Positions 7,484-22,630 of a stretch of 64,000 nucleotides of DNA are shown piece by piece. Numbering within the stretch: the stretch's first letter is position 1; each line of letters starts with the position of its first letter. The notes beneath the pieces were generated by a model. That model worked only from the letters and a program-made list of their open reading frames with translations. It searched no databases and had not been told where the DNA came from. Origin of the DNA: Planktothrix rubescens CCAP 1459/22 (lineage in GTDB: Bacteria; Cyanobacteriota; Cyanobacteriia; Cyanobacteriales; Microcoleaceae); NCBI GenBank assembly GCA_904830895.1, contig LR882958.1:3156001-3220000 (forward strand), in the 5' to 3' direction. The translations under genes and the position numbers were made by a program.

Positions 7484-9220
7484 CTAGTCTAGTTGACTGT
7501 TATCATCAGAGCATCCATCTCCTTTTGAGTTATAAGACCCATCAGTTGATGTTTTAATATCGTGACAATGGCGATGTAATAATTGCAGGTTTTTATAATC
7601 ATTCTTTCCACCTTTCGATGTAGGGATGATATGGTCGATTTCTGCAATATCTTCTGGGGTAAAATACTGCCCACAGAGGTTACATTTGCCTTTTTGCTTT
7701 TTGAGCAAAGTTGCTACTCGTTTAGGTACATCAAAAGATGTTCCTTTTCTTGTACTCCAATATGTCCAGTTTCCGTCATAAGGTGATGCTTCAGGTCTTA
7801 CAGTGACGTGGCGGGTGATTGGTGTTTCTGCATGGGTTAGTAGTTTATAACCATCTTTGGTTTCAAAATTCCATGCTTTGCTATCGTTTTTCCTGAAATA
7901 GTTCTTCAGTTTCCCGTAGTTTGCCTTTCCGCATCTGCTGACTGTCCATGCTCTTAATCTCTGCCATGTCATATAATCTAAAGAGGAGTATGTTTCTTTG
8001 GAAACTACTTTGGAGTGATAATTACACCATCCTCTTATGACAGGGTTTAAGCGTTTGATTAGTGCGTATTGGGGTGCAGTTTTGTGGGTTTTAATCACTT
8101 CTTTCACTTTGTCCGCGTGAGCTTTAATTGCCTTCTTACTAGGTTTTATTAGAGTTTTAAATCCTAATCGCTTAGAGCTTCCTCCCGTTGTACCACAGTG
8201 GTGTTTTCCCACTGGGTATTGTCGAAAGTTCCAGCCTAGAAAGTCGAATCCTGGTGCTACCTTTTCGCCTTTTACTTCAATTTCTTTCAGTGTGTGGCAT
8301 ATACGGGTTTTGGCTGGTTTCAGTTCCAACCCTACAGGTTTTAACCATTCTTCGATAGCAACCTGGCACTGTTGAATGACCTCTAATTGTGGACTAATAA
8401 CCACAAAATCATCGGCATATCTGATGACTGTTGCGTAGTTTTTGTTGTTGCTCGTTTTCTTTGGGAACAAGCTCCTAACTAAACTCATCATTCCATCCAG
8501 TGCGATGTTTGCAAGTAGAGGACTAATGACTCCTCCTTGTGGAGTGCCTGTCTCTGTTGCATTAAATATGCCGTTATCCATAACTCCAGCTTTTAACCAT
8601 TGTTTGATTTGGGCTTTCATTGTTGATGGACAATCAATTTTGGACAGTAGGTATTCATGGTTGATCTGGTCAAAACATTTTGAGATGTCAGCATCTAAGA
8701 TGTAATATTCACCTTTATTGATGCTTTGGAAGATTCTTGACATTGCGTCGTGGGTAGAGCGTCCGGGTCTGAACCCGTAGCTTTCACCTTCAAATCTGGC
8801 TTCCCATTGTGGTTCTAATGCAGATTTCACCAAGGCTTGTCTGACTCTATCGTTTATAGTTGGGATTCCTAGAGGACGTTCTTCTCCGTTGGGTTTGGGT
8901 ATCCATTTCCTTCGGAGTGGTTTCGCCTTTTGGTATTTATTCAAGTTTCCGACAAGTTCTAATCGTTGTTTGGGTGTGATGGATTTAACACCATCTACCC
9001 CGGCTGTTTTCTTGCCTTGATTATCTTGAGTTACCCTTCTAACTGCTAAGAGTTTGGCGTAATATGACTTAACTAGAAGTTTTTGAAGTTTTCGAGCCTT
9101 TGCATTTTGTCCCGATAATGATGCCTGGTAAATTCGCTTTTGCAGCTTGAATACTTTTCTTTGAACTTTCGCCCAGTTGATTGTATTCCATGCTTCCGTA
9201 GTCTTGAAACTCGTTTTCAC
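7484..9220 (-). CDS. ltrA: group II intron reverse transcriptase/maturase with HNH endonuclease (outer intron)
   Basis: The protein has 578 residues, starting at GTG 9220. The RT domain carries AGVDG, LRRKWIPKPNGEERPLGIPT, YGFRPGRS, a TGTPQGGVISPLLANIAL block, and the catalytic YADD at about residue 268. A maturase X domain follows (NPVIRGWCNYHS). The C-terminal ~60 residues hold an HNH motif with CNLCG, EIDHIIPTSKGG and LLHRHCHD. These activities splice the intron RNA, nick the target and copy the intron into DNA. All motifs are present, so the protein looks functional, but its gene is separated from intron domains I-III by the inner intron, which begins 14 bases upstream of the start codon. 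Confidence 0.93.
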   Translation of the reverse strand: MKTSFKTTEAWNTINWAKVQRKVFKLQKRIYQASLSGQNAKARKLQKLLVKSYYAKLLAVRRVTQDNQGKKTAGVDGVKSITPKQRLELVGNLNKYQKAKPLRRKWIPKPNGEERPLGIPTINDRVRQALVKSALEPQWEARFEGESYGFRPGRSTHDAMSRIFQSINKGEYYILDADISKCFDQINHEYLLSKIDCPSTMKAQIKQWLKAGVMDNGIFNATETGTPQGGVISPLLANIALDGMMSLVRSLFPKKTSNNKNYATVIRYADDFVVISPQLEVIQQCQVAIEEWLKPVGLELKPAKTRICHTLKEIEVKGEKVAPGFDFLGWNFRQYPVGKHHCGTTGGSSKRLGFKTLIKPSKKAIKAHADKVKEVIKTHKTAPQYALIKRLNPVIRGWCNYHSKVVSKETYSSLDYMTWQRLRAWTVSRCGKANYGKLKNYFRKNDSKAWNFETKDGYKLLTHAETPITRHVTVRPEASPYDGNWTYWSTRKGTSFDVPKRVATLLKKQKGKCNLCGQYFTPEDIAEIDHIIPTSKGGKNDYKNLQLLHRHCHDIKTSTDGSYNSKGDGCSDDNSQLD

Positions 9221-9233
9221 CGTTTATACTGCT

Positions 9234-11374
9234 GTTAGAGTCGATTAGAGGGTTGCCCCTCTAACCTCTCCTTCAGAACCGTGCATGAAACTTTCGCCTC
9301 ACACGGCTCCTTGATATTTCCACCTTTGTTATAGGTACGATTTAAAACGGATTGAGGTCGTAATTCTCAACTATTGGTAGTTGCTTACTTTTAGTTGCAG
9401 AACCATCATGAACCGTTTTTATGTCGTGACAATGTTTGTGTAAAAGTTGAAGATTATCATAGGTGTCTTTTCCACCTAATGATTTTGGTTTAATATGGTC
9501 AACTTCTACAATGTCTGTACTTGTAAAATACAGACCACAGTGAGAACAAATACCCTTTTGTTTCTTGATTAATTTGGAAACCCTGTTAGGAGTTTCAGGA
9601 TATTCGCCTCTACGTTTACTCCAGTAAATCCAGTCTCCATTGAACGGACTAGCCTCACCTTTAACCTTTGTATGCCTTACGATTGGCGTACTCTTGTGGA
9701 TGAGTAATTCTAATCCATCTTCTGTACTGAAACACCAATTTCTGTCTTCTACTGTTCTCCAGTATTTGTCTTTATTGATGCTCCCTTTTCCCCTCGTTCT
9801 TGCCCAGGCTCTTAACTTGTCGTAGATTAGATGGTCAACCTTTGAAAAGATTTCTTTGCTAATCACAGTTGAGTAATAGTTTGACCAGCCCCTAATGATT
9901 GGATTTAGCTTGCCTATTAAAGCAGCTTGTGGGGCGTTCTTATGGGTATCTATTACATCAGTTATTTTGACAAGATGAGTTTTAGTTTTTGTTTTTGAGG
10001 GTGTGATTAATGTTTTAAAACCTAATAATTTTCCATAAGGGTTTTTAGCACATTTGTAGTTACCTACTTTGTACTGTTGTATATGGAACCCTAGGAACTC
10101 AAACCCAATGTTTCCCTCGATTTCCTTGAGGGTGTGGGTTAATCTTGTTTTACTTGGTTTTAATTCCAATCCCATGTCAATTAACCATTCCACAATTATC
10201 TCTTGACACTTTTTGACTACGTTTAAATCCTCGTGGATTATTACGAAATCATCAGCGTAACGGATTAAACTAAGGTTTTTAGGAAAAAGTTCTTTTCCGT
10301 CCATGTACCCTGCTCTTAGCCACGCTTGAATTTGACGGCTTAATGTAGGGTATGTGTGAATTTTTGAGATTAATGCTTTGTGATTTATGCGGTCGAAGCA
10401 TTTGGATATATCAGCATCGAGTACAAATTTAGATTTGCTTCTAATGCTAAGAAATATTGCTTCGATTGCATCGTGGCATGAGCGTCCTGGTCTGAAACCA
10501 TAACTGTTTGGCTCAAATTTAGCCTCCCATTCTGGTTCTAACGCTAGTTTTACTAACGCTTGCAATGCGCGGTCGTTGATTGTGGGTATTCCTAATGGAC
10601 GGGTTTCGGTTGTACCAGGTTTGGGAATATTAACTCTACGAGTTGGTTTTACCTTATTGGTTAACTTTAATCGTCCTACCAAGTTCATACGTTGTTTAGG
10701 ATTCAGTGTTTTGATTCCGTCCACTCCGGCTGTATTTTTACCTTGGTTATCTTGTGTTATCCGGCGAACCGCAATACATTTTGCTGACCAGGAATTAATC
10801 AGGGTCTTTTGAAGTTTACGAACTGCTTTAACATCGCCTCGTTCACTCGCTTGAAATATGCGCTTTTGCAACTTGAAAGTTACCTTTTCCAGCTTGCGCC
10901 AGTTAAGGTCTTTCCATTCCACCGTCTGAGTTTTAATCAGCGTTTTAGACATTTGTATTGCTACTTGTTCTATTTCTTTGGAATTACCGAGTATCTGTCT
11001 GCATATCTTTGCCTTTTGGCTTGGTGTTAATCTAGGATTCTTACCGTATTTTTCAACGGATTTACCATTGATTTAGCCTTTACACCATTTAAAGTGACGA
11101 TGATTCAAACACATCTTTGCTTGTGCTACGCATGGACTTTTTGCTCGATAGTTACCAGATTTGGCTACCAGTAGTTCTACCTTTTAACCCCGCTTTAGTC
11201 TGTTGGTTGCTACCCGAACAAACTAGGGGTTATGCTTTCACCTCAGCACTTGAGGGATGAGACTTGTCAGAACTTCTGACTCACTCATAAATGTAATCAG
11301 TTATCACCAGTCTTAACAACTGGGTTAACCGTCCCATAAACTTTTCAGCTTATTTTAGGTTAAACGAATCGCAC
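9234..11374 (-). mobile_element. inner group II intron, inserted in domain IV of the outer intron
   Basis: The 5' end gtgcgattcg starts at 11374. The 3' part has domain V at about 9309-9260 (gagccgtgtgaggcgaaagt, then ttcatgcacggttctga), domain VI hairpin ttagaggg-gcaa-ccctctaa, and ends cgactctaac at 9234. It is 2.14 kb, shorter than the outer intron. The stretch before its ORF is only ~420 bases, against ~680 in the outer one, so domain I may also have lost sequence. The two introns are related: both carry atrcgcagacagat-like bases just before the ORF. It sits immediately upstream of the outer intron's ORF. Confidence 0.8.
9342..10952 (-). CDS. ltrA: group II intron RT/maturase with internal deletion of the RT-4 motif (inner intron)
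   Basis: The protein has 536 residues, starting at ATG 10952, and is homologous along its length to the outer intron protein. It keeps AGVDG, TRPLGIPTINDRALQALVK, YGFRPGRS, the YADD at about residue 232, the X domain (NPIIRGWSNYYS) and the HNH (CSHCG, EVDHIKPKSLGGKD, LLHKHCHD). However, between MDGKELFP and NLSLIRYADD about 38 residues are missing relative to the outer protein, removing the whole TPQGGxxSPLLANIAL block. The frame is kept. This block contributes to the RT template/primer cleft, so reverse transcription should be dead while maturase function may survive. ELFP near the gap hints at deletion between short repeats. Confidence 0.88.
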   Translation of the reverse strand: MSKTLIKTQTVEWKDLNWRKLEKVTFKLQKRIFQASERGDVKAVRKLQKTLINSWSAKCIAVRRITQDNQGKNTAGVDGIKTLNPKQRMNLVGRLKLTNKVKPTRRVNIPKPGTTETRPLGIPTINDRALQALVKLALEPEWEAKFEPNSYGFRPGRSCHDAIEAIFLSIRSKSKFVLDADISKCFDRINHKALISKIHTYPTLSRQIQAWLRAGYMDGKELFPKNLSLIRYADDFVIIHEDLNVVKKCQEIIVEWLIDMGLELKPSKTRLTHTLKEIEGNIGFEFLGFHIQQYKVGNYKCAKNPYGKLLGFKTLITPSKTKTKTHLVKITDVIDTHKNAPQAALIGKLNPIIRGWSNYYSTVISKEIFSKVDHLIYDKLRAWARTRGKGSINKDKYWRTVEDRNWCFSTEDGLELLIHKSTPIVRHTKVKGEASPFNGDWIYWSKRRGEYPETPNRVSKLIKKQKGICSHCGLYFTSTDIVEVDHIKPKSLGGKDTYDNLQLLHKHCHDIKTVHDGSATKSKQLPIVENYDLNPF

Positions 11375-12053
11375 GTTAACAACCTTACCTAACAACTAAA
11401 CCGGAATCTGTCTGCGTATCCTAAACATTACATTTAGGCATTGGCTTCTGACTCCATCTCTCGCCCTCATAACATCCGCCTTAGATTTGTGGCTACCTAA
11501 CAATATTCGACCTCTGTAGGAGTACATGAGGGGTTTTAAAGTTCCTTGAAAATGGGTTTATTGCCTTTAGAGTCATCCTATCCGCCGGGGTACTTTTGGG
11601 AGTCTTAGTAAGTATTTTAATTAAAATCTTACCTTTTGTAGAAATTCGTTGAACTTTCTACCTTTTCCCCTTGTTCTTTTTGAACGCAGCGTGGTCAAAT
11701 CAATTTCGCTACCTTATTGTAACGACGGTTCATGTTGGATGTTTACTTTCGTTATTCTTAGGCAATTAGCTAGAGAACTTCTTAGGTATTTGATTTATAC
11801 CCGATTTCCCGTTATTCCCAGCTTCAGTGTTTTGATAATCAGTCTGACACTGTGGGAATTGCCATATCTCTTTGGTGTTGGCTACCACATAGAATAGTTA
11901 CTACCATTGACTCCGAGATTGACCTTCCTTTAAGGTCACATTTTCAAAGTTAAGACAGGCTCGATTGGATTTATTGTGTACCAATTATCTATACCTGTCT
12001 CCCTGTTTACGTTTTGGGTTTTATCCCTAGACTTTGACAGGAACGTCTCGCAC

Positions 12054-12459
12054 AATTAAAACAATATTAAGACAATTTGGTAATTTCCGGTGGATCGGAT
12101 CAGAAATTTGTCAAATTTGGTGAACCAGCATGGAAGTCAGCTTTTCAGGGCTTCAAAATCGTAGTAAGCCCTTCAGGGCTTCAATCCCATGGCTACAGGT
12201 AAGGAACTTCAAAATCACTCTAAGTTAAGCCCAGAAAAGCTCACAACAATTGATCTTGTTGCCTCGTATCGGTTTTGAACTTTCGTTTATCACATAATGT
12301 TACTTTTGTCAAGTATCACTGTTGGCTTTTGGGAATTCTGCGATCGCTCGTCATCAGCGTTTCAATGCCCTCTATAGAAAAGATGAGGAGCCTTTGAGAG
12401 TCCAAAGGCTAATACTTGTCAAGCCTCAGATTTTGATGCTCACAATCAATTTACTTGCA
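12054..12459. other. short 5' exon of DUF6883 gene and palindromic repeats
   Basis: Bases 12054-12089 (minus) are the probable 5' exon next to the outer intron and read RKLPNCLNIVLI in the frame of the 3' exon. Bases about 12145-12190 hold two copies of a tcagggctt-type palindromic repeat (agcttttcagggcttc; agcccttcagggcttc) related to the agtaagccctttagggct repeats near 59.1 and 62.0 kb. A HIP1 site lies at about 12350. I see no recognisable gene in the rest. Confidence 0.5.
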
Positions 12460-13356
12460 TTACTTACAGTTAGCTATAGCCCATTCTTGCAAGTAGTTTC
12501 CTATAACTATTTTACCAATTTGATAGCCACCATAAACAGCTGCACCTGTCCCTCCAACTAATAGAAATCCCATGACAGCAGGGCCACCTACGGCGGAAGT
12601 CACAACTGCTGTAGCTGCTGCTCCACTTGCACTGCTACCCAACCAGCCAGCTATTAACTGAGTTAAGCCACCTAATCCCAACTGAGACACAGTAGAAGCA
12701 ATTCCAGCATAACCAGACAAAGCTCCTGCACCAGCAGCAGAAGCACTTGTTACAGATCGAAGTATTACAACTGTTGCATCTGCACCTTTTTCAATAGCCG
12801 TCCAACTGGAACTATCACCTCCTTGAACTTTATCCAGATAAGATTGACACATAGTTTCTGGAGTTGATTGTAGAAAAACTTTCATATCTTTTCGGAGTTG
12901 TTTGTTCTTTCCAAGCACTTGTTCACCCGCAAAAGATATAGAGTCCAAAACCAGTTGATTGACCGGAATATTAATGTTAGCTAAAAATGAGTTAGTTTTG
13001 TTGGAAATATCTGCGTAGTCAATTGCTTGAAGGTTGTTTCCAAAGTCTTGAACTAGCTGTTGACCGTACTTTAATTGATCCCCACTAACTTTACTTGCAT
13101 CTTTCAAGATTTGATTCGATGAAATAAAAGTATTTCCTAATGTAGTTTGGGTGTTGGCAAGAATCTGTTTTCCTAATTCAGCCTTGGCATAAAGTAGTTG
13201 AGCCGTTTCTTCTAAAACCTGGTCTTTAGCAATGTTTTGCTGTTCTAAAACATTCTTAGTAGTTTCGACAAACTGACTGCTACCCACAAAATTACTTAGG
13301 TCTTGCATAGCTTGTTTGCAATCGAGCAACATCTCCCTCGATTGCACCACTAACAT
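12460..13356 (-). CDS. C-terminal part of an exported helical protein with glycine-rich membrane segments (frameshifted)
   Basis: About 280 meaningful residues. The first two thirds are helical and rich in Gln, Asn and Leu without recognisable motifs (FVGSSQFVETTKNVLEQQN). Two stretches then alternate Gly/Ala/Ser with hydrophobics: around ASAAGAGALSGYAG and GLGGLTQLIAGWLGSSASG, and GGPAVMGFLLVGGTGAAVYG. They look like glycine-zipper or pore-type membrane hairpins as in bacteriocin-like proteins. The first ~15 codons are probably spurious, because the gene 13292-13732 supplies the true N-terminus in the next frame. I do not recognise a family. Confidence 0.55.
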   Translation of the reverse strand: MLVVQSREMLLDCKQAMQDLSNFVGSSQFVETTKNVLEQQNIAKDQVLEETAQLLYAKAELGKQILANTQTTLGNTFISSNQILKDASKVSGDQLKYGQQLVQDFGNNLQAIDYADISNKTNSFLANINIPVNQLVLDSISFAGEQVLGKNKQLRKDMKVFLQSTPETMCQSYLDKVQGGDSSSWTAIEKGADATVVILRSVTSASAAGAGALSGYAGIASTVSQLGLGGLTQLIAGWLGSSASGAAATAVVTSAVGGPAVMGFLLVGGTGAAVYGGYQIGKIVIGNYLQEWAIANCK

Positions 13357-13732
13357 CGGTGATTATCTGTGATAGATTGATCTGATTTAATAAAGATTTT
13401 GCTTCAGCACTTAAACGGCTTCCAATTTCAAGCTGCTTTCTTGTAAGCTCGTTGACTTTTTGGGAAAGTTCTGATCCGTGTTGAAGTTGTTCTCCGATAA
13501 AACCTTGTGATCCTTTTATCAGATTGAAAGATCCTTTTTTCGTATCCTCGAAGACTTGACCCATATTACTGAGTAGAGTTGGGTCACTAGCTAAAATTAC
13601 AGCAGGTGAGTTAGCATTTATTGGCGTTATCGGATCTGCTAAAGCTTTGGCTGTTTCTATAAATCCTGAATGAATGAGTAGAAACAAACTTGAAATAAGA
13701 ATTACTAATGGTTTCCGACAAGACTTAAACAT
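13292..13732 (-). CDS. N-terminal part of the same exported protein (signal peptide, coiled coil)
   Basis: The protein starts MFKSCRKPLVILISSLFLLI with a basic n-region, hydrophobic core and a likely cleavage site after AKALA. It continues as a heptad-rich helix (GFIGEQLQHGSELSQKVNEL, then TRKQLEIGSRLSAEAKSLL). The last ~10 residues before the stop (LQTSYARPK) are probably out of frame. Shifting by one base near 13310-13345 leads into the C-terminal ORF 12460-13356. Together they would give a ~420-residue secreted protein with a helical stalk and glycine-rich membrane-active tail. A tRNA-Lys gene lies 66 bases upstream. Confidence 0.6.
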   Translation of the reverse strand: MFKSCRKPLVILISSLFLLIHSGFIETAKALADPITPINANSPAVILASDPTLLSNMGQVFEDTKKGSFNLIKGSQGFIGEQLQHGSELSQKVNELTRKQLEIGSRLSAEAKSLLNQINLSQIITDVSGAIEGDVARLQTSYARPK

Positions 13733-13797
13733 TATTAAATTTCCCTACAAACGGATAATCAAATGATGAGTAACTCGTCATTATCATACCTTAAAAA

Positions 13798-13869
<72 letters not shown>

Positions 13870-13940
13870 GCGCGTTTTGTACTTTTCCCACGCACAGTTT
13901 CTAATAGTAACACAACACTTTCGGGTTGACAAGGGGTTTC

Positions 13941-14834
13941 TCAAAAAAATGTTGCATTCAGGTGGACGAGCATCTCACAACTGGCTCCGGGCTTGAGATA
14001 GGTCAATAATTTTCCCGTATTCATCGCATTGCGGGGGGCTGTCCAAGGTTCCAAACAATAGTAATCTTTGCCCTTGACTGTCCAATAGACCACACTAGAA
14101 TAGGCATAACTATAGCCCATAATAATTTTAGAGCGACGACTGTGATCAATGGTGGTGGTGGCTAACCCGGTGAGGGGATTAAACAGACCGTCTATTTCCT
14201 CCTCCAATGGATCAAACCGCCCCGTAAACACATGGTTTTTCTGGGTGCGTTGATCTCGATACTGCATCGCCGGAATTTCAAAAGCCAATTGCTCCTTATC
14301 TCCCGCTAGGAAATAAGGATGTAACCCCGTGGAAAAGGGCATGGTCTGGGCGGGTAGACTATCGGTTGTCCCGCAGAGGTTCGTATAACGTTGGAAAATT
14401 TGTAAAGAGTTACCTTTGAGGGTATAGGTAAACTCCACTTCAAAATCAAAGGGATAAACGGAACGGGTTTGGGGATTACTTGTCAAGACCAAGGTAATCG
14501 CAGCCCCCTGATTTGTCGCCTGTTGTGCTACTGTCCAGGGCAAATTTCGAGCAAAACCATGTTGTTTGAGGGTATACTTTTGACCCTGATAGGTGTAGGT
14601 ATCATCGGGTAAATTCCCACAAATGGGGAATAAAATCGGGATTCCGCCCCGTACCGTTAACTCAGGATTAGCAAACCGTTCACTATCTAAATACAGTAAA
14701 TCCTGACCCTCGACTTGCCAACGGGTAATGATTCCGCCCCGTTCGGGTACAACTTCTAGGCTCGACTGGGTAGCCGGGTCAGACAGGACGTAGGTTTTAT
14801 ATTGTTGATGGGGTTTCAGTGCGATCGCAAACAC
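13941..14834 (-). CDS. aldose 1-epimerase (galactose mutarotase)-family protein
   Basis: The protein has 297 residues, the normal length for the family. Conserved stretches: SSLEVVPERGGIITRWQVEG, RGGIPILFPICGNLPDD, KQHGFARNLPW with the conserved His, and a C-terminal VYWTVKGKDYYCLEPWTAPR. These match the YeaD/mutarotase fold that interconverts alpha and beta anomers of hexoses or hexose 6-phosphates in the cytoplasm. The residues before FAIALK are a poor signal, so cytoplasmic location is assumed. It is followed by the CapA-like gene upstream at 14904 on the same strand, probably co-transcribed (69-bp gap). A 165-bp copy of its 3' end recurs at 19831-19996. Confidence 0.88.
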   Translation of the reverse strand: MFAIALKPHQQYKTYVLSDPATQSSLEVVPERGGIITRWQVEGQDLLYLDSERFANPELTVRGGIPILFPICGNLPDDTYTYQGQKYTLKQHGFARNLPWTVAQQATNQGAAITLVLTSNPQTRSVYPFDFEVEFTYTLKGNSLQIFQRYTNLCGTTDSLPAQTMPFSTGLHPYFLAGDKEQLAFEIPAMQYRDQRTQKNHVFTGRFDPLEEEIDGLFNPLTGLATTTIDHSRRSKIIMGYSYAYSSVVYWTVKGKDYYCLEPWTAPRNAMNTGKLLTYLKPGASCEMLVHLNATFF

Positions 14835-14903
14835 AGTAATAGTTAGGAATAAATAAACTTTGGACAGGTAAACAAATTCACTCAGTGGGTGACCGTTAGG
14901 ATC

Positions 14904-16892
14904 TTAGCCTATGACTTGATCAAGCTCTCGATGTTTCAAAGGAAGATCAATTTCAGCATGAGATCCCGTGCTCACAGATTGCTGTTTAGGAATAGCAATT
15001 TGAAACGAAATTGGGGAGTTGGAACCCCTATAACTTTGGGTGCTAGGGACGGGAGCCTGGGGAAAAGAAGGAAGGGAGATAAACGGATCTTTAATAAAAG
15101 GTTGATCAATATAGGGTTTGAGGTCATCCTGGGTTTCCGTTTTAGTTTCTAATTTAGGGGGTAAGGGGGATTCAGTCTGTGACATAGACCCCGACCCCTC
15201 AGAAACTGGAGACTGCATGGGTTCGGAGAACAGTGTTTTCGGGGGTTCCGATGGGACTATCTCCGTCGCAGTAGGTGGACTTTCTGGCTTAGGTTCCGTC
15301 ACTAAGGGTAAAGTCGGTTCGGTTAAGGCTGCATCCACCTGTTTAATCTGTCGTTGGGGGGTGTCTAAGACGACGGAGGACTGCATGGGCTGATCAAAAA
15401 TTTGTGAGAGTCGCCCCACCCGTTTAATAATATCCTCGCCTTTTTTAGTTGATATCACCTTAGCTTGATATTGGGTCACTTCTACTGGTAAAAACTCGAC
15501 CTTCATTTGATGGTTAGCATTTAGGGCAACTCTAAGCACAGCAGTTTCATAGTCCGCGCGACTATTTCCCCCAAAAATAAAATTCCCCAGGGAGTAAACA
15601 ATCGGCCGACCTTTATAAATTTCTGCACCCTGTAGGGTATGGGGATGATGACCAATCACCACATCGGCTCCTTGATCAATGGTAAATCGGGCCAGGTCAA
15701 TTTGCCAGTCCCCCGGATATTCCGCCAGTTCTACGCCCCAATGGTAGTTAACCACCACCCAATCCACCTGATCTCGAATGGCTTTAATATCGGCGGCTAC
15801 CCGCTCATCATAACGGGGATTGGTTCCGGCTAAACTCTCAGTAGCAGCATGAAAGTCGGCATCGTAATAGCCTAAATAGGCAATTCGTTGACCTTTAACT
15901 TCAATAATCGTGGGCCGACGAGCTTCTTTAATATCTCGACCTGCCCCCACCGTTTTAATCCCAGCTTGGTCTAAAGTTGCGATGGTTTCCACTAGCCCCG
16001 GTTCCTCATAGTCCATCGTATGATTATTAGCGAGATTGACAATATCAATCCCCCCTTCTGTTAATACTTTTACGGATTCTGGATCGGCTTTAAAATTAAA
16101 TTGTTTGTTAGGACGGCGTAGGGTAGAACGGGTGAGGGGATTTTCTAAATTCACCATAGCCACATCGGCATCCTGATATTCGGGGAGTTGGGCAAAGGGT
16201 AGGGAGTAGTTCGTCCCAATCACATCTTCAAAGTGATCGGACAGGGTGACATCTCCCCCAAATACTAAAGTCACCGTAGGATCTTGGGGATTTTTGACTT
16301 GTTCCTGTTGTACCACTGGAACTACTTCTAAGGCGGCTTGCACGGTATCATGGCGTTTTGGTGGCGGTGCGACCATCACTACCTTTTCTTGAGGGTTGGA
16401 TAGGGGGAGTTGTTGGGCGTTAACTTCGTAGTAACTCACCCAACAGCCCAATACAAAGGCAGAAACGGCCGAACCCATCATAAACATTAACCGCAGGGTT
16501 TTAAATTTAATCCCGTCCAGATTTAACCACCGTCGGTATGCTTGTCCTTTGCTTCGATAAACTTGATTGGCTGGAGTCACTAGCCGTACCGATTGTTTCC
16601 AGAGAATCTCCCCATCTCCTTGATACCGGGCGGCAATTTTTACTCCTTCTAGGTTAGGGGCGTTGAGTTTCCACAGCAAGTGACAGATAAACTTAACAAT
16701 GCCCTCATTCATGGCTTCCTGTTGAAATTCAACCAGGACGGGTAAACAGCCTTTATGATCGGGGGGCGCGACTCTCGCTGAGATCCCTTCAGGTCTGAGA
16801 TAGGTATTAATTAAATCGCTAATTGCCCTTAGGTCTCCAGTCCGGGCTAATTCAAAAATAGAAGGTTGACCTAAATATTCTGCATAAACCAT
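14904..16892 (-). CDS. membrane-anchored CapA-family (PGA_cap) metallophosphatase-like protein
   Basis: The protein has 662 residues. Residues 1-115 are a conserved cyanobacterial N-terminal module (LARTGDLRAISDLINTYLRP). A single transmembrane segment lies at about 150-170. The CapA domain (~200-455) shows VTLVFGGDVTLSDHFEDVIG, VNLENPLT, NFKADPESVKVL, VNLANNHTMDYE, VNYHWGVE, VIGHHPHTLQG and IVYSLGNFIFGG, the metal-binding calcineurin-like folds linked to capsule poly-gamma-glutamate synthesis. In cyanobacteria the real substrate is unknown. The last ~200 residues are Pro/Ser/Thr-rich and probably disordered. Two segments of this gene are repeated at 19997-20060 and 20079-20259. Confidence 0.85.
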   Translation of the reverse strand: MVYAEYLGQPSIFELARTGDLRAISDLINTYLRPEGISARVAPPDHKGCLPVLVEFQQEAMNEGIVKFICHLLWKLNAPNLEGVKIAARYQGDGEILWKQSVRLVTPANQVYRSKGQAYRRWLNLDGIKFKTLRLMFMMGSAVSAFVLGCWVSYYEVNAQQLPLSNPQEKVVMVAPPPKRHDTVQAALEVVPVVQQEQVKNPQDPTVTLVFGGDVTLSDHFEDVIGTNYSLPFAQLPEYQDADVAMVNLENPLTRSTLRRPNKQFNFKADPESVKVLTEGGIDIVNLANNHTMDYEEPGLVETIATLDQAGIKTVGAGRDIKEARRPTIIEVKGQRIAYLGYYDADFHAATESLAGTNPRYDERVAADIKAIRDQVDWVVVNYHWGVELAEYPGDWQIDLARFTIDQGADVVIGHHPHTLQGAEIYKGRPIVYSLGNFIFGGNSRADYETAVLRVALNANHQMKVEFLPVEVTQYQAKVISTKKGEDIIKRVGRLSQIFDQPMQSSVVLDTPQRQIKQVDAALTEPTLPLVTEPKPESPPTATEIVPSEPPKTLFSEPMQSPVSEGSGSMSQTESPLPPKLETKTETQDDLKPYIDQPFIKDPFISLPSFPQAPVPSTQSYRGSNSPISFQIAIPKQQSVSTGSHAEIDLPLKHRELDQVIG

Positions 16893-17193
16893 AAAAATAC
16901 TATCCTCTCCCTATAGAAATTTTGCTTGCGGTTCAGTTTAATATAAAGATCACCTTAACCCTGACCCTAGCGAGTCGTTGATCATTAGATTTTATCAAAA
17001 ATGGTAGCCATAGGAATAGATTTAGGAATTTCTAGTCTACCTACAACATCTATTCGTAACTACTAATCAAATAGTGGCTACAGGCTTCTAATATAGGATA
17101 AACTCTCAGGTTGCACCCTGCCGCCAACATCCAGAATAATTAGGTTAGGGAATACAGCTTAAAGTTTTGGTTAGGGTTTGGATTGAGTTCGAT
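16893..17193. other. intergenic stretch, no gene seen
   Basis: About 300 bases upstream of the CapA-like gene. It is AT-rich, with stops in all frames and no clear tRNA, repeat or riboswitch. It ends at the right end of the IS605-type relic at 17194. Short open frames here look like chance. Confidence 0.5.
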
Positions 17194-17720
17194 TTGACAC
17201 TCCCACGGGTGAACCGCGTTGGATTCTCCTGTCTAGCCCCGATTGCTCGGTATTCATGGAGTTGCCCCCTACTGTTTCCAGAATTGCTTCACAGCAATAT
17301 TAGAGGAGAGTACGAGACTCTGAGGAATGCCAAGTACCTCGTCCCAATTGACGGCACACGACTATTACAGTCTTTGGCTCTGCCAAGATTTTTCGGAGCT
17401 TTCTGTAGTCAACAGGGATAATCACAGTGGTTGCCTTTTTCTCGCCATTGACAACTTGTTTTTAAGGAGGTCAGAACATCTGACCAGATAAGCGAGGAAC
17501 ATCCTTGCTATACTCTGATAATAGAGTCTTAAATAGAGTATGTCAAGGGAAAAGAAAATTCAGTTTAATGTTAACGAGAAAGAATATGAACGTCTCAAAA
17601 GTCATGCTGAATCAGAAGGATTATCAATGGCTGAAGTTCTTAGGGATTACATTAAAACCCTCACACCCCCTTTAGGGGGTCGCACTACATCCCACGACTG
17701 AAGTGCGTGGGCTTTGTGCG
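17194..17720 (-). mobile_element. second tnpB-less IS605/IS1136-type relic, inserted at the AAA ATPase 3' end
   Basis: On the minus strand the right end carries the hairpin gcggttcacccgtggga and ends gtgtcaa at 17194, the same kind of terminus (gtcaa) as the other two elements. The left end is the hairpin cccacgcacttcagtcgtggg at about 17688-17708. No tnpB frame remains. Bases about 17200-17400 (minus) look like a structured RNA end (several short stem-loops, a typical place for omega RNA), but I cannot fold it here. A small RHH gene (17540-17701) lies inside on the opposite strand. The outer left boundary is uncertain by ~15 bases. Confidence 0.6.
17540..17701 (+). CDS. small ribbon-helix-helix protein of IS605-type elements
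   Basis: A 53-residue frame from ATG 17540 to TGA 17701: MSREKKIQFNVNEKEYERLK, then SHAESEGLSMAEVLRDYIKT. This is a typical RHH (CopG/Arc-like) protein (strand IQFNV, helices YERLKSHAESEG and MAEVLRDYI) of the kind found at one end of cyanobacterial IS200/IS605-type elements. Its last ~10 codons read through the left-end hairpin (TTSHD). It may regulate the element; with tnpB gone it is an orphan. Confidence 0.7.
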   Translation: MSREKKIQFNVNEKEYERLKSHAESEGLSMAEVLRDYIKTLTPPLGGRTTSHD

Positions 17721-19523
17721 AGGTTGTTGTAAGATCAATCCTTCATATCCTAAACGGAAATCTTCGGTCGTAATCGAAATTTCTTTCGGATCAGTTAACC
17801 CTTGGCGACGATAGCGACGGATGGCTTCTAAGGCGGCTTGATTACTTAATAATGCTAAATCTGCCCCATTCCAACCTTCAGTTTCCGTTGCCCAATTTGT
17901 TAAATTAATATCAACTAAAGGACGGTTTTTATTATGAACTTTCAGGATCGCTAAACGACTATTAATATCGGGTAAATCGACTTTTAATTGTAAATCTAAT
18001 CTTCCCGATCTCAAGAGGGCTGGATCGATAGCTTCGGGGCGATTTGTTGCCCCAATTAATAAGACTTCAGAACTATTTTGTAACCCGTCTAATTCCGTTA
18101 ATAATTGCCCTACAACGCGATCGCTTACCCCTGAATCTCCCAGATAAGCCCCACGAATCGGAGCTAAACTATCAATTTCATCAATAAAAATAACACAGGG
18201 AGAGGCTTGTCTGGCTTTCGCAAATAATTCTCGAACAGCGGCTTCGGCGGCTCCTACCCAACGGGTTAATAATTCCGGCCCATTCACCGCAATAAAATTA
18301 GCCCTAGATTGGGATGCGATCGCTTTTGCTAATAAGGTTTTACCCGTTCCGGGTGGCCCCCAAAGTAAGATTCCACGGGGGGCTTTGGCTCCGGTTTGTT
18401 GATATAATTCCGGGTAAAGTAACTGACCTTCTACGGAATCCTGTAAGGTTTGTTTAATACTCTCTAAACCGCCAATTTCTTCCCATGAAATATTAGGATT
18501 TTCCACTTCTACCGACCGCAAAACTGAAGGCTTAATTTCCGTTAAAGCGGTGATAAAATCCTGTTGATTAATATATAATTGATCGGGAACGGTCGCTTCT
18601 AAAGAGGGAACCTGACGACGTAAAGCGGTATAGGCGGCGGCTTGACAAGTAGCTTTTAAATCTGCCCCGACAAATCCCACAGATAAATCGGCAATTTCTT
18701 CTAAATTAACTGTTTTTAAGGGCATGGATTGTGTTAGAATAGTAAGGATTTCTAAGCGCCCATTTCTATCAGGAACTCGAAAGCGAATTTCTTTATCAAA
18801 TCTGCCCGGACGTCGTAGGGCTGGGTCAATAGCATCGGGGCGATTTGTTGAGGCTAAAACAATCACTCCTGGGGTTTTGGCAAAACCATCCATTAAGCCT
18901 AATAATTGAGCCACTAATCGTTTTTCCACTTCCCCTTCCACTTGGGAACGATGGGGGGCTAAACTATCAATTTCATCAATAAAAATAATACAAGGGGCTG
19001 ATTTCGCGGCTTTCTCAAAAATTTGTCTTAATTTGGCTTCCGCTTCCCCATAATATTTGCCCATAACTTCCGGGCCGACAATAGCAATATAACTGACTCC
19101 TAATTCTTCTGCAAAAGCCCTGGCGGTTAGGGTTTTACCCGTTCCTGGGGGCCCGACAAATAATACGCCGCGAGGGGGTTCTAGGCCTAATTTTGCTAAC
19201 AATTCAGGACGTTTTAAAGGCAATTCTACTAATTCTCGTAATTGTTGAATCACATCTCCTAACCCCCCCACTTCTGAAATATTGCATGGGAGATGGAAAT
19301 TTTGAGGGGAAAAATTAGGGGTTTCTGAGGGGGTTTCCACCGATGGAGGAGTAATAATTACAGAACGGAATTCTGTATTGTTTTTTGGTATATTCCCCTG
19401 TCTAGGAATACTGGTACGAGAACCGATTTGTACGTTGGTTTTAATTTCTCCACTTTTGATTTTTTCATCTAAGGTTTTTGCTAGTTCAAATAATTGATCA
19501 AACCCATCAAATAAATTAGTCAT
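17685..19523 (-). CDS. CDC48/VCP-like protein with two AAA ATPase modules
   Basis: The protein has 612 residues with two AAA+ modules. Module 1 (~85-330) has Walker A GPPGTGKT and Walker B IIFIDEIDSLAPHR; module 2 (~350-590) has GPPGTGKT and VIFIDEIDSLAPIR. Each has sensor/arginine-finger regions (ALRRPGR; LLRSGR). CDC48-type unfoldases extract or remodel proteins as hexamers. The N-terminal ~80 residues are not the canonical CDC48 N domain. The last ~12 residues (PRTKPTHFSRGM) are encoded by the left-end hairpin of the IS605-type relic, so the native C-terminus has been replaced. A fragment of module 1 is repeated at 20260-20431. Confidence 0.92.
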   Translation of the reverse strand: MTNLFDGFDQLFELAKTLDEKIKSGEIKTNVQIGSRTSIPRQGNIPKNNTEFRSVIITPPSVETPSETPNFSPQNFHLPCNISEVGGLGDVIQQLRELVELPLKRPELLAKLGLEPPRGVLFVGPPGTGKTLTARAFAEELGVSYIAIVGPEVMGKYYGEAEAKLRQIFEKAAKSAPCIIFIDEIDSLAPHRSQVEGEVEKRLVAQLLGLMDGFAKTPGVIVLASTNRPDAIDPALRRPGRFDKEIRFRVPDRNGRLEILTILTQSMPLKTVNLEEIADLSVGFVGADLKATCQAAAYTALRRQVPSLEATVPDQLYINQQDFITALTEIKPSVLRSVEVENPNISWEEIGGLESIKQTLQDSVEGQLLYPELYQQTGAKAPRGILLWGPPGTGKTLLAKAIASQSRANFIAVNGPELLTRWVGAAEAAVRELFAKARQASPCVIFIDEIDSLAPIRGAYLGDSGVSDRVVGQLLTELDGLQNSSEVLLIGATNRPEAIDPALLRSGRLDLQLKVDLPDINSRLAILKVHNKNRPLVDINLTNWATETEGWNGADLALLSNQAALEAIRRYRRQGLTDPKEISITTEDFRLGYEGLILQQPRTKPTHFSRGM

Positions 19524-19830
19524 TTTAAAACCTGATTAAAAAATAGGATTACGGGCGGATTTATTCAAGTTAATTATAACTAAAAAAAATAATCAAAACC
19601 ACCATAAAACTGTTATAGTGCGTAGCACTCGGGAACAGGGAACAGTAAGCAGTGAAAGGGTTTCAGGAATAAAAAGTGTCTTAACTGTAATGCGTAGCGC
19701 TATATAATCTTCGGAGCGCATCTAAATTGGGTATTTGACAAAAACTAATCCAGTAAACCACTCGTGGTAAAGTCTGTTCCCTGTTCCCTGTTCCCAATTC
19801 CCAGCTATCATTATTTTTAACTTGAAATCC
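19524..19830. other. AAA gene upstream region with gggaacaggg-type repeats
   Basis: The 5' flank of the AAA gene contains short gggaaca/tgttccc runs (about 19633-19650 and 19772-19798) and a gcgctatataatcttcggagcgc palindrome near 19697. No gene is seen. The whole stretch recurs at 20432-20724 with about 95% identity by eye. It ends with the last codons of the YbjN-like gene (ttaacttgaaatccga), followed abruptly by sequence from the tRNA-Lys flank. Confidence 0.6.
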
Positions 19831-20724
19831 GACCCGCGCGTTTTGTACTTTTCTCACGCACAACTTCTAATAGTAACACAACACTTTGGGGTTGGCAAGG
19901 GGTTTCTTAAAAAAATGTTGCGTTCAGGTGAACGAGCATCTCACAAATGGCTCCAGGCTTGAGATAGGTCAATAATTTTCCCGTATTCATCGCATTTAGT
20001 TTCTAATTTAGGGGGTAAGGGGGATTCAGTCTGTGACATAGACCCCGACCCATCAGAAACCAAGGATTTCAAACATTAGTCCCCGGATATTCCGCCAGTT
20101 CTACGCCCCAATGGTAGTTAACCACCACCCAATCCACCTGATCTCGAATGGCTTTAATATCGGCGGCTACCCGCTCATCATAACGGGGATTGGTTCCGGC
20201 TAAACTCTCAGTAGCAGCATGAAAGTCGGCATCGTAATAGCCTAAATAGGCAATTCGTTTTCCCCATAATATTTGCCCATAACTTCTGGGCCGACAATAG
20301 CAATATAACTGACTCCTAATTCTTCTGCAAAAGCCCTGGCGGTTAGGGTTTTACCCGTTCCGGGTGGGCCAACAAATAATACGCCACGGGGGGGTTCTAA
20401 GCCTAATTTTGGTAACAATTCAGGACGTTTTATAGGATTACGGGCGGATTTATTTAAGTTAATTATAACTAAAAAAAATAATTAAAACCACCCATAAAAC
20501 TGTTATAGTGCTACCCACTAGGGAACAGGGAACAGGGAACAGTAAGCAGTGAAAGGGTTTCAGGAATAAAAAGTGTCCTAACTGTAATGCGTAGCGCTAT
20601 ATAATCTTCGGAGCGCATCTAAATTGGGTATTTGACAAAAACTAATCCAGCAAACCACTTGTGGTAAAGTCTGTTCCCTGTTCCCAATTCCCAGCTATCA
20701 TTATTTTTAACTTGAAATCCGATC
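19831..20724. repeat. collapsed second copy of a ~6-kb tandem duplication
   Basis: The stretch is a mosaic of five segments copied from upstream in the same order and orientation: 19831-19996 matches 13865-14030 (tRNA flank, epimerase 3' end); 19997-20060 matches 15143-15206; 20079-20259 matches 15709-15888 (both CapA-like gene); 20260-20431 matches 19045-19216 (AAA gene); 20432-20724 matches 19543-19833 (AAA upstream region plus the YbjN-like gene 3' end). The gaps correspond to deletions. Only ~18 bases (20061-20078) are not accounted for. Sequence identity is high, with scattered substitutions. Confidence 0.88.
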
Positions 20725-21162
20725 TAAAGCCCGTCTTCCTCCCCAACGTTCTACTATTTTATCATCATAATCATCGGCAATTTCTAACACTGCATTAACT
20801 GAGGCTTCTAGTTCTAATTTATCACAAGTAGAACCAACAATAGTATGCTCAAAAATAATATCCCCGTGTTCATCAATCCCAAAAGCTCCAAACCTCATAA
20901 TATTATTTTCTCGTAGGAGAAAATGTAATAAATCTGGAGAAAGTTCTACATCTGTCACCACATAAGACCGAGCATTAATAATGGCATCATCTTTTTCCCA
21001 AGGGAATACAAATACCTCAACTAATGCTGAACCCATGACCATTGCTAATCCGGGTACGTCTTCTCTAGCACAAGGAAATTTGCCATATAATTCTCTCATC
21101 CAGGTGGCAATTTTGTTATAACAGGCTTCTTGGATTGCGGTTTGAAATTGCATTTTTAGCAT
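20707..21162 (-). CDS. YbjN / type III secretion chaperone-like protein
   Basis: The protein has 151 residues, starting MLKMQFQTAIQEACYNKIAT. The central part has alternating strands and conserved FVFPWEKDDAIINARSYVVT, then LLRENNIMRFGAFGIDEHGD and HTIVGSTCDKLELEASVNAV. This layout (helix, strands, LLrxNxxxxxGxF, long C-terminal helix) is that of the YbjN / CesT-type peptide-binding chaperone superfamily, common and uncharacterised in cyanobacteria. The last codons (RISS) were copied into the 19.8 kb duplication junction, so this gene's 3' end is one endpoint of that event. Confidence 0.75.
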   Translation of the reverse strand: MLKMQFQTAIQEACYNKIATWMRELYGKFPCAREDVPGLAMVMGSALVEVFVFPWEKDDAIINARSYVVTDVELSPDLLHFLLRENNIMRFGAFGIDEHGDIIFEHTIVGSTCDKLELEASVNAVLEIADDYDDKIVERWGGRRALDRISS

Positions 21163-21298
21163 TCTCCCTGAACTTTTTCCTCAGTTTTAACATCTTTGGG
21201 GTCACTAGAAACAGAGTTTGTATTATTTCTCAACACGCTGAAACTCGGTTACACTAAAAATAGTGAATCTGAAGTTGAGTTTGATTGGAGGGTAAACC

Positions 21299-21412
21299 AT
21301 GGATGAAATTGCAATCACTAATGCTAAATTAATTGCTCAAGTGATTACTGTGTTAGGTTCATTGGGCTTTTTCTTTGCCACGTTTCAAGCGTTGAAACAA
21401 TTGGAAAAATAG
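21299..21412 (+). CDS. 37-aa single-pass membrane peptide
   Basis: ATG 21299 follows a good ribosome site (ggaggg) at 9-10 bases. The peptide starts MDEIAITNAKLIAQVITVLG, and the hydrophobic run IAQVITVLGSLGFFFATF gives one membrane helix, followed by a short basic/polar tail (QALKQLEK). It is the size of the small subunits of photosystems, cytochrome b6f or NDH-1, but I do not recognise it as any of them. A rho-independent terminator follows directly. Its convergent neighbour is a Psb28-type gene, which makes a photosynthesis role worth testing. Confidence 0.65.
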   Translation: MDEIAITNAKLIAQVITVLGSLGFFFATFQALKQLEK

Positions 21413-21417
21413 GATTT

Positions 21418-21447
21418 AGGACGCGCTCTGGCGCGTTCTGATTTTTT
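21418..21447 (+). terminator. rho-independent terminator of the 37-aa peptide gene
   Basis: The stem aggacgcgc / gcgcgttct (9 bp, one G-T pair) with loop tctg is followed by six T residues. It starts 5 bases after the stop codon at 21412 and ends at the stop codon of the convergent psb28-type gene. Confidence 0.8.
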
Positions 21448-21796
21448 AGGTAGACTGAAATTGGAATCCATTCTCATCAGCATAACGATTTAAAAACCGC
21501 ATGACTCGCTCAAAAATGTCTTCTGAGTATACTTCAAAGTAACATTCAACCTTAGAAAGATCCTCATTTTCTGCATAGAAGAACTTGACATTGCTGGGGG
21601 TAACTTTGATTTGTCCTTCTTCATCGCGTAACCACAAATTAGTGATTTGTTTCCGATAGGCTCTTAGTCTTTCTATCGCTTGAAGACGCTCAAATAGCAA
21701 GACCACAATTTTAGTTTTGGAGTCTTTGCGTTTCCGCAGACTAATCCCGCTAATTTCTTCATCTAATCCATCAATAAACTGTACAGAGGTTGTCAT
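21446..21796 (-). CDS. psb28: Psb28-family photosystem II assembly protein (Psb28-2-like)
   Basis: The protein has 116 residues. It follows the Psb28 plan from end to end: VQFIDGLDEEISGISLRKRK at the start, WLRDEEGQIKVTPSNVKFF in the middle, and the hallmark C-terminal RVMRFLNRYADENGFQF. Psb28 binds early photosystem II complexes on the thylakoid cytoplasmic side, around CP47 and cytochrome b559. Many cyanobacteria have two paralogues; the divergent middle part (FERLQAIERLRAYRKQ) suggests the Psb28-2 type. It is next to coaE on the same strand (67-bp gap). The family call is confident, the subtype less so. Confidence 0.85.
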   Translation of the reverse strand: MTTSVQFIDGLDEEISGISLRKRKDSKTKIVVLLFERLQAIERLRAYRKQITNLWLRDEEGQIKVTPSNVKFFYAENEDLSKVECYFEVYSEDIFERVMRFLNRYADENGFQFQST

Positions 21797-21863
21797 GATT
21801 TTTCCTCTCTGCTTTTCCTTGATTTTATCCTATTTTTAGGAAAACCTCAACTCTTTTCTAGTT

Positions 21864-22505
21864 TTAGGGGATATTTTGCCCTCGAATTGCTGCATCCACT
21901 TGTTTAAAAAGTTCTGCTGGGGTTGAAGAATTGTATAAAATTATATCTGCTTGTTTACATTTTTCTGCTAAAGACATTTGGCTATTAATTTTAGCTTCAG
22001 CTTCTTCGGTGGTTAAAAGTCGACCAAAATTAATTTTTTCTCTTTCTATTAACCTCAAATATTGCTGTTCAAGAGGACAATAGACAACCCAAATTTCCGT
22101 GACTAAATCCGTCATTTGCGATTCAAATAATAACGGAATCACTAAAACCCCGTCAGCGTAAGGGTTGCCATCGGGATTCTGGATTTTTTGAGCTTTTAAT
22201 TGTTTAATATTGTTAACAAAACAATGGCGCACAAAGGGGTGTATCTGTTGCTCTAGCCAGGTTCGCTCCGATGAGTCTGAGAAAATCAGACTAGCCAATT
22301 TCTGCCGATTTAAGTTACCATTATAAAGTAGAATATCCCTCCCATAGCGGTCAACAATTTGTTTGAGAACAGGTGAACCGGGTTCCACTGCCTCTCTCGC
22401 ATATAAATCCGCGTCCCAAATGGGGAGTCGGTAGGTCGTGATAAGATAGTTGGATACGGTCGTTTTTCCGCTTCCTATCCCTCCGGTAAGACCAATTAAA
22501 CGCAT
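21864..22505 (-). CDS. coaE: dephospho-CoA kinase
   Basis: The protein has 213 residues, the normal length. The P-loop GLTGGIGSGKTT is at residues 5-16, followed by IWDADLYAREAV (the conserved Asp of the CoA-binding part), VIPLLFESQMTDLVTEIWVV and the lid RLIEREKINF. The enzyme phosphorylates dephospho-CoA at the 3'-hydroxyl of ribose, the last step of coenzyme A synthesis, in the cytoplasm. It is transcribed away from the haemagglutinin/CHAT gene, and probably upstream of psb28 in the same direction. Confidence 0.96.
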   Translation of the reverse strand: MRLIGLTGGIGSGKTTVSNYLITTYRLPIWDADLYAREAVEPGSPVLKQIVDRYGRDILLYNGNLNRQKLASLIFSDSSERTWLEQQIHPFVRHCFVNNIKQLKAQKIQNPDGNPYADGVLVIPLLFESQMTDLVTEIWVVYCPLEQQYLRLIEREKINFGRLLTTEEAEAKINSQMSLAEKCKQADIILYNSSTPAELFKQVDAAIRGQNIP

Positions 22506-22630
22506 AATCCTGTTTTTAAATCTATAATACTATTCATAATAGTAATAGAAATAGTCTATCTGGGTGGCTTCTGTAAAAAATAAATAGTAGATTCCCTTTC
22601 GGTAATTGTTTATTCAAGGCATAAACCCTT

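Follow-up and report, generated by a model that had tools for sequence, protein, structure and literature searches.

Five Collinear Fragments beside a YbjN-Like Gene in Planktothrix rubescens, Probably Left by the Collapse of a Tandem Duplication

Three known processes leave structures close to the one presented here. Tandem duplication at short junctions in bacteria is alike in giving a direct repeat of several kilobases, a 3-bp microhomology seam, and whole edges; here, however, the second copy consists of fragments and has been inherited by two strains. Tandem duplication with random loss, as outlined for mitochondrial gene order, is alike in that a redundant copy is eroded piecewise into collinear remnants between intact genes, but here the gene order is unchanged and the losses seen are confined to one copy. 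Microhomology-mediated template switching with templated insertions also joins short nearby pieces with little joint homology and short filler, whereas here strand and order are unchanged and the full span is that of one duplication. The array of fragments described below illustrates a known process in well-preserved form and amounts to ordinary genome debris. No published description of it was found in titles or the opening parts of abstracts, and we make no claim that similar structures are absent from print.

The window analyzed is a stretch of 64,000 nucleotides from Planktothrix rubescens CCAP 1459/22, located within a chromosome contig of 5.46 Mb (genome, 5.70 Mb). It was compared with itself by BLAST and with the other genomes returned by a search of the genus, which yielded 10 genomes, the window's own included; G059 is the sole other genome of the species among them. 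The completion of 13 Planktothrix genomes is reported in PMC9366434. The source unit, or first copy (13864 to 19832), runs from the edge of a tRNA-Lys gene through aldose-epimerase and CapA-like genes, an insertion sequence (IS)-like insert, and an AAA ATPase gene to the spacer reaching the YbjN 3′ end. The genes are all on the minus strand. The tRNA-Lys (ttt) gene (13798 to 13869) has its 5′ six bases inside the duplicated unit. The aldose 1-epimerase gene (13941 to 14834; PF01263) is, through its 3′ terminal part together with the interval up to the tRNA gene, the source of segment 1; the CapA, or PGA_cap, gene (14904 to 16892; PF09587) is the source of segments 2 and 3; and the AAA ATPase gene (17685 to 19523), with two AAA domains (PF00004 in two stretches), is the source of segment 4. 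A spacer insertion of ∼194 bp (19616 to 19809) is present in both copies of both strains and was not found here in other species. The YbjN-like gene (20707 to 21162; PF22551 and PF10722) has its last codons in segment 5.

Self-BLAST of the window shows that positions 19833 to 20722 consist of five fragments of 13864 to 19832, with order and strand unchanged. The preliminary description had placed the array at 19831 to 20724; the array itself stands, as do its five collinear, same-strand segments (recovered as five direct pairs), while its end is moved to 20722, and 17 to 20 bp (20061 to 20080) fall outside the five segments. Segment 1 (19833 to 19996, from 13867 to 14030) belongs to the pair 13864 to 14030/19830 to 19996, which is 94% identical. 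Segment 2 (19995 to 20060, from 15141 to 15206) is 98.5% identical to its source, and segment 3 (20081 to 20259, from 15711 to 15889) is 100% identical, the same sequence being found in both copies of both strains. Segment 4 (20260 to 20436, from 19044 to 19220; 94%) is given with bounds trimmed relative to the raw self-BLAST pair, and by eye its true match may stop at 19216/20432. Segment 5 (20432 to 20722, from 19543 to 19832; 92%) includes the end of the YbjN-like gene, which the preliminary description had said it restores. The second copy is thus directly repeated, in order, from one duplication edge to the other.

The five pairs score 94 to 348 bits, versus a best match of 26.8 bits in 200 first-order-Markov randomizations of the array, which were compared with the source unit only. 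The nominal chance of five pieces falling in one order and on one strand is 1 in 1,920 (5! × 2^4). When 20 control stretches, each 20 kb long and taken from this chromosome, were examined for such chains, a chain of two was present in 3 of them and a longer chain in none (0/20).

The duplication seam (19830 to 19832) is a CGA microhomology that corresponds exactly to the CGA at the tRNA edge (13864 to 13866) and to the CGA at the YbjN 3′ end (20720 to 20722). The gaps in the second copy amount to 1,110, 504, 3,154, and about 325 bp of the first copy; because the 3,154-bp span includes a 535-bp insert unique to the window strain, the third gap would have been ∼2,619 bp at the time of deletion. 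About 890 of the 5,431 bp of the second copy are left (16%), and about 84% is gone. Three joints show 2, 0, and 1 bp of homology (by eye), values of 0 to 2 bp being also the chance level, and the second gap carries a filler of 17 to 20 bp (20061 to 20080). A 22-mer containing the filler occurs once per strain within 3 mismatches, at the array, and is exact in both strains; by the same criterion no source was found elsewhere in either strain's genome, and an exact scan of viral contigs yielded none. The first copy retains its long open reading frames (ORFs), and the losses seen are those of the second copy. At the edges the tRNA-Lys gene is whole and the YbjN ORF complete, since a tandem duplication leaves its edges whole.

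The comparison with a related strain suggested in the preliminary description shows the same collapsed array in G059: self-comparison of that genome gives the same five pairs in the same arrangement with the same filler. The two strains are 98 to 99% identical across the region, and window positions 17728 to 27070 align to G059 without gaps. G059 has the CapA-AAA fusion without the 535-bp insert. As the array is common to both strains, the duplication and all four deletions predate the strain split. A second copy that is intact, or less eroded than here, was not found in the one other strain of the species compared.

The duplicated block is itself an apparent fusion of two loci, joined at 16993 to 17193. 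In all eight other Planktothrix species examined, separate contigs carry the tRNA-Lys/epimerase/CapA block and the YbjN block. The AAA gene adjoins YbjN in five of these species (G003, G004, G006, G007, and G008); a full AAA gene beside YbjN was not seen in G001, G002, or G005. G001 has a 149-bp match (70%) beside YbjN, and relatives of segment 4 (76 to 77% identity) are found on other contigs. At a cutoff of matches of at least 60 bp, array fragments are absent from the YbjN locus of all eight species. These array-less species also lack the fusion, and a fused but unduplicated state was seen in none. Beyond CapA, the stretch compared contains no AAA or YbjN sequence in any of the eight (211 bp compared in G005). 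The two contigs extend >100 kb on each side of the blocks in G003 and are short in G004 and G005. The G003 sequence starting 1.7 kb past CapA corresponds to 4.30 Mb in the window's genome (94%), and nearer to CapA it matches only dispersed repeats there. In G059, the sequence preceding AAA in G003 is located (84% identity) at a distance of about 38 kb from the array, and the window's genome has just a 30-bp match to it. Among the genomes examined, the fusion is thus a rearrangement confined to this species.

According to the preliminary description, the stretch between the tRNA-Lys edge and the YbjN 3′ end was duplicated in tandem, with CGA shared at the junction, and the second copy was then mostly deleted. 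This is the best explanation of the collinearity and of the array shared with G059, and we extend it by two earlier steps, giving the whole history a probability of roughly 0.85. In an ancestor of both strains, the tRNA-Lys/epimerase/CapA block would have become joined to the AAA/YbjN block, and the ∼194-bp insertion would have entered between AAA and YbjN; this insertion, being in both copies of both strains, is older than the duplication. A short-junction tandem duplication of about 5.4 kb (5,966 bp in the window minus the later 535-bp insert) would then have arisen through the 3-bp CGA microhomology. The redundant second copy, once intact, would have shed about 84% of its length step by step, through four deletions whose joints have 0 to 2 bp of homology, filler being present at one. 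The strains would have split after this, and the 535-bp IS-like insertion would have entered the window strain. With only short repeats remaining, the array would be harder to excise by recombination between copies, and so it would have persisted. Tandem duplications in bacteria are described as frequent and unstable (PMC12607827). The scar's inheritance by two strains suggests that a duplication can become locked in once deletions shorten its repeats.

A one-step origin, in which fork or repair synthesis recopied the region and skipped forward four times by microhomology-mediated template switching, so that no intact second copy ever existed, is unlikely. It would fit the joints with 0 to 2 bp of homology, the one with 17 to 20 bp of filler, and the sharing of all joints by both strains with no intermediates seen; however, ordinary deletions would look alike. 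Template switching often alters strand or order, whereas here neither changes in any of the five pieces, and the ends of the array coincide exactly with the two duplication edges. It is correspondingly doubtful that the array is the single-event bacterial counterpart of templated-insertion chains, now preserving in fixed form alleles that recombination has removed from the intact genes.

Under the preferred history of duplication and stepwise loss, the identity of the fragments to their sources (92 to 100%) calls for a separate account. High identity had been taken as a sign that the event was recent; this does not hold in that form, as three of the five fragments are only 92 to 94% identical to the source and the four deletions were complete before the strains split. 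For segment 1, only 1 of 167 positions separates the window's first copy from G007, versus 10 of 167 separating it from its own fragment, and at four of the sites that distinguish it from the G059 first copy it carries the G007 base. In segment 4, there are 10 differences in 177 positions between the window's two copies but just 3 in 177 between its fragment and the G059 first copy; of the four copies compared, only the window's first copy departs from the rest at seven sites, where it always has the G006 base. From these few sites, the most probable interpretation is that sequence of other lineages entered the first copy while the fragments retained an older allele. A second reading for segment 4 is that the G059 first copy was converted by its own fragment. 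The strains are just 94 to 96% identical in the AAA windows bordering segment 4, outside the fragment's cover, which favors exchange with other lineages. Later recombination in the first copies would thus account at least in part for the uneven identity, and fragments that may preserve older alleles help to reveal later exchange in the intact copy.

Fixed differences between the copies number 18 in 872 positions over all five segments, with 0 in the 245 bp of segments 2 and 3 (P = 0.0025); the 18 include a cluster by an 8-base indel and sites possibly introduced by recombination. Bases found only in the fragments and common to both strains number 6 in 589 positions of segments 1 to 4 (by eye), again with none in segments 2 and 3 (P = 0.04). 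This runs counter to simple clock-like divergence, and gene conversion in segments 2 and 3 is possible. As the sole cause of the uneven identity it was rejected: segments 1 and 4 do not require it, their first copies having changed, to judge from G059 and the other species.

Origin of the fragments in a different strain or species, with entry by transformation or merodiploid formation instead of duplication in place, is very improbable. The differences between the window's copies in segments 1 (10/167) and 4 (10/177) are at about the level seen between species, as import would predict, but the segment 4 fragment is just 3/177 from the G059 first copy, the odd one being the window's own first copy, and the fragments hold pieces of both fused blocks together with the species' own spacer insertion. 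Misassembly, for which we found no support, is scarcely credible, given that a second genome of the species, which has substitutions of its own, shows the same structure and filler.

We saw no sign of function in the array, which consists of broken pieces with a longest open frame of 93 codons stop to stop, and among RNA families only tRNA was found in 12000 to 22000. Persistence of the array would require no selection. In L158 (2787 to 9440), one of the three control stretches with a chain of two, second copies of two genes, which we take to be Uma2-like and HigA-like, abut although their sources are 1.9 kb apart (92.5% and 95.5% identity); this pair is possibly a second, smaller collapsed duplication.

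Several further features were observed in the window. The 535-bp insertion (17194 to 17728), absent here in G059, contains a small ribbon-helix-helix ORF (17540 to 17701; Pfam RHH_1), has a target duplication of at most 1 bp, and in the window strain encodes the final codons of the AAA ORF; the window's genome has eight more near-full-length copies (96 to 99%) and G059 has three, and we presume that it resembles a nonautonomous IS200/IS605-type element. Two adjacent reverse-transcriptase/HNH ORFs (7484 to 10952) by eye resemble group II intron proteins, and the second seems to lack a stretch ahead of YADD. Positions 12357 to 13796, beyond the tRNA-Lys 3′ end, have no match of >150 bp in the 18 kb of G059 sequence compared; G003 does match them. 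A stretch of 411 bp inside a TPS/CHAT-domain gene (27071 to 27481) is missing in G059, and since several other species align across it, the difference is probably a deletion in G059.
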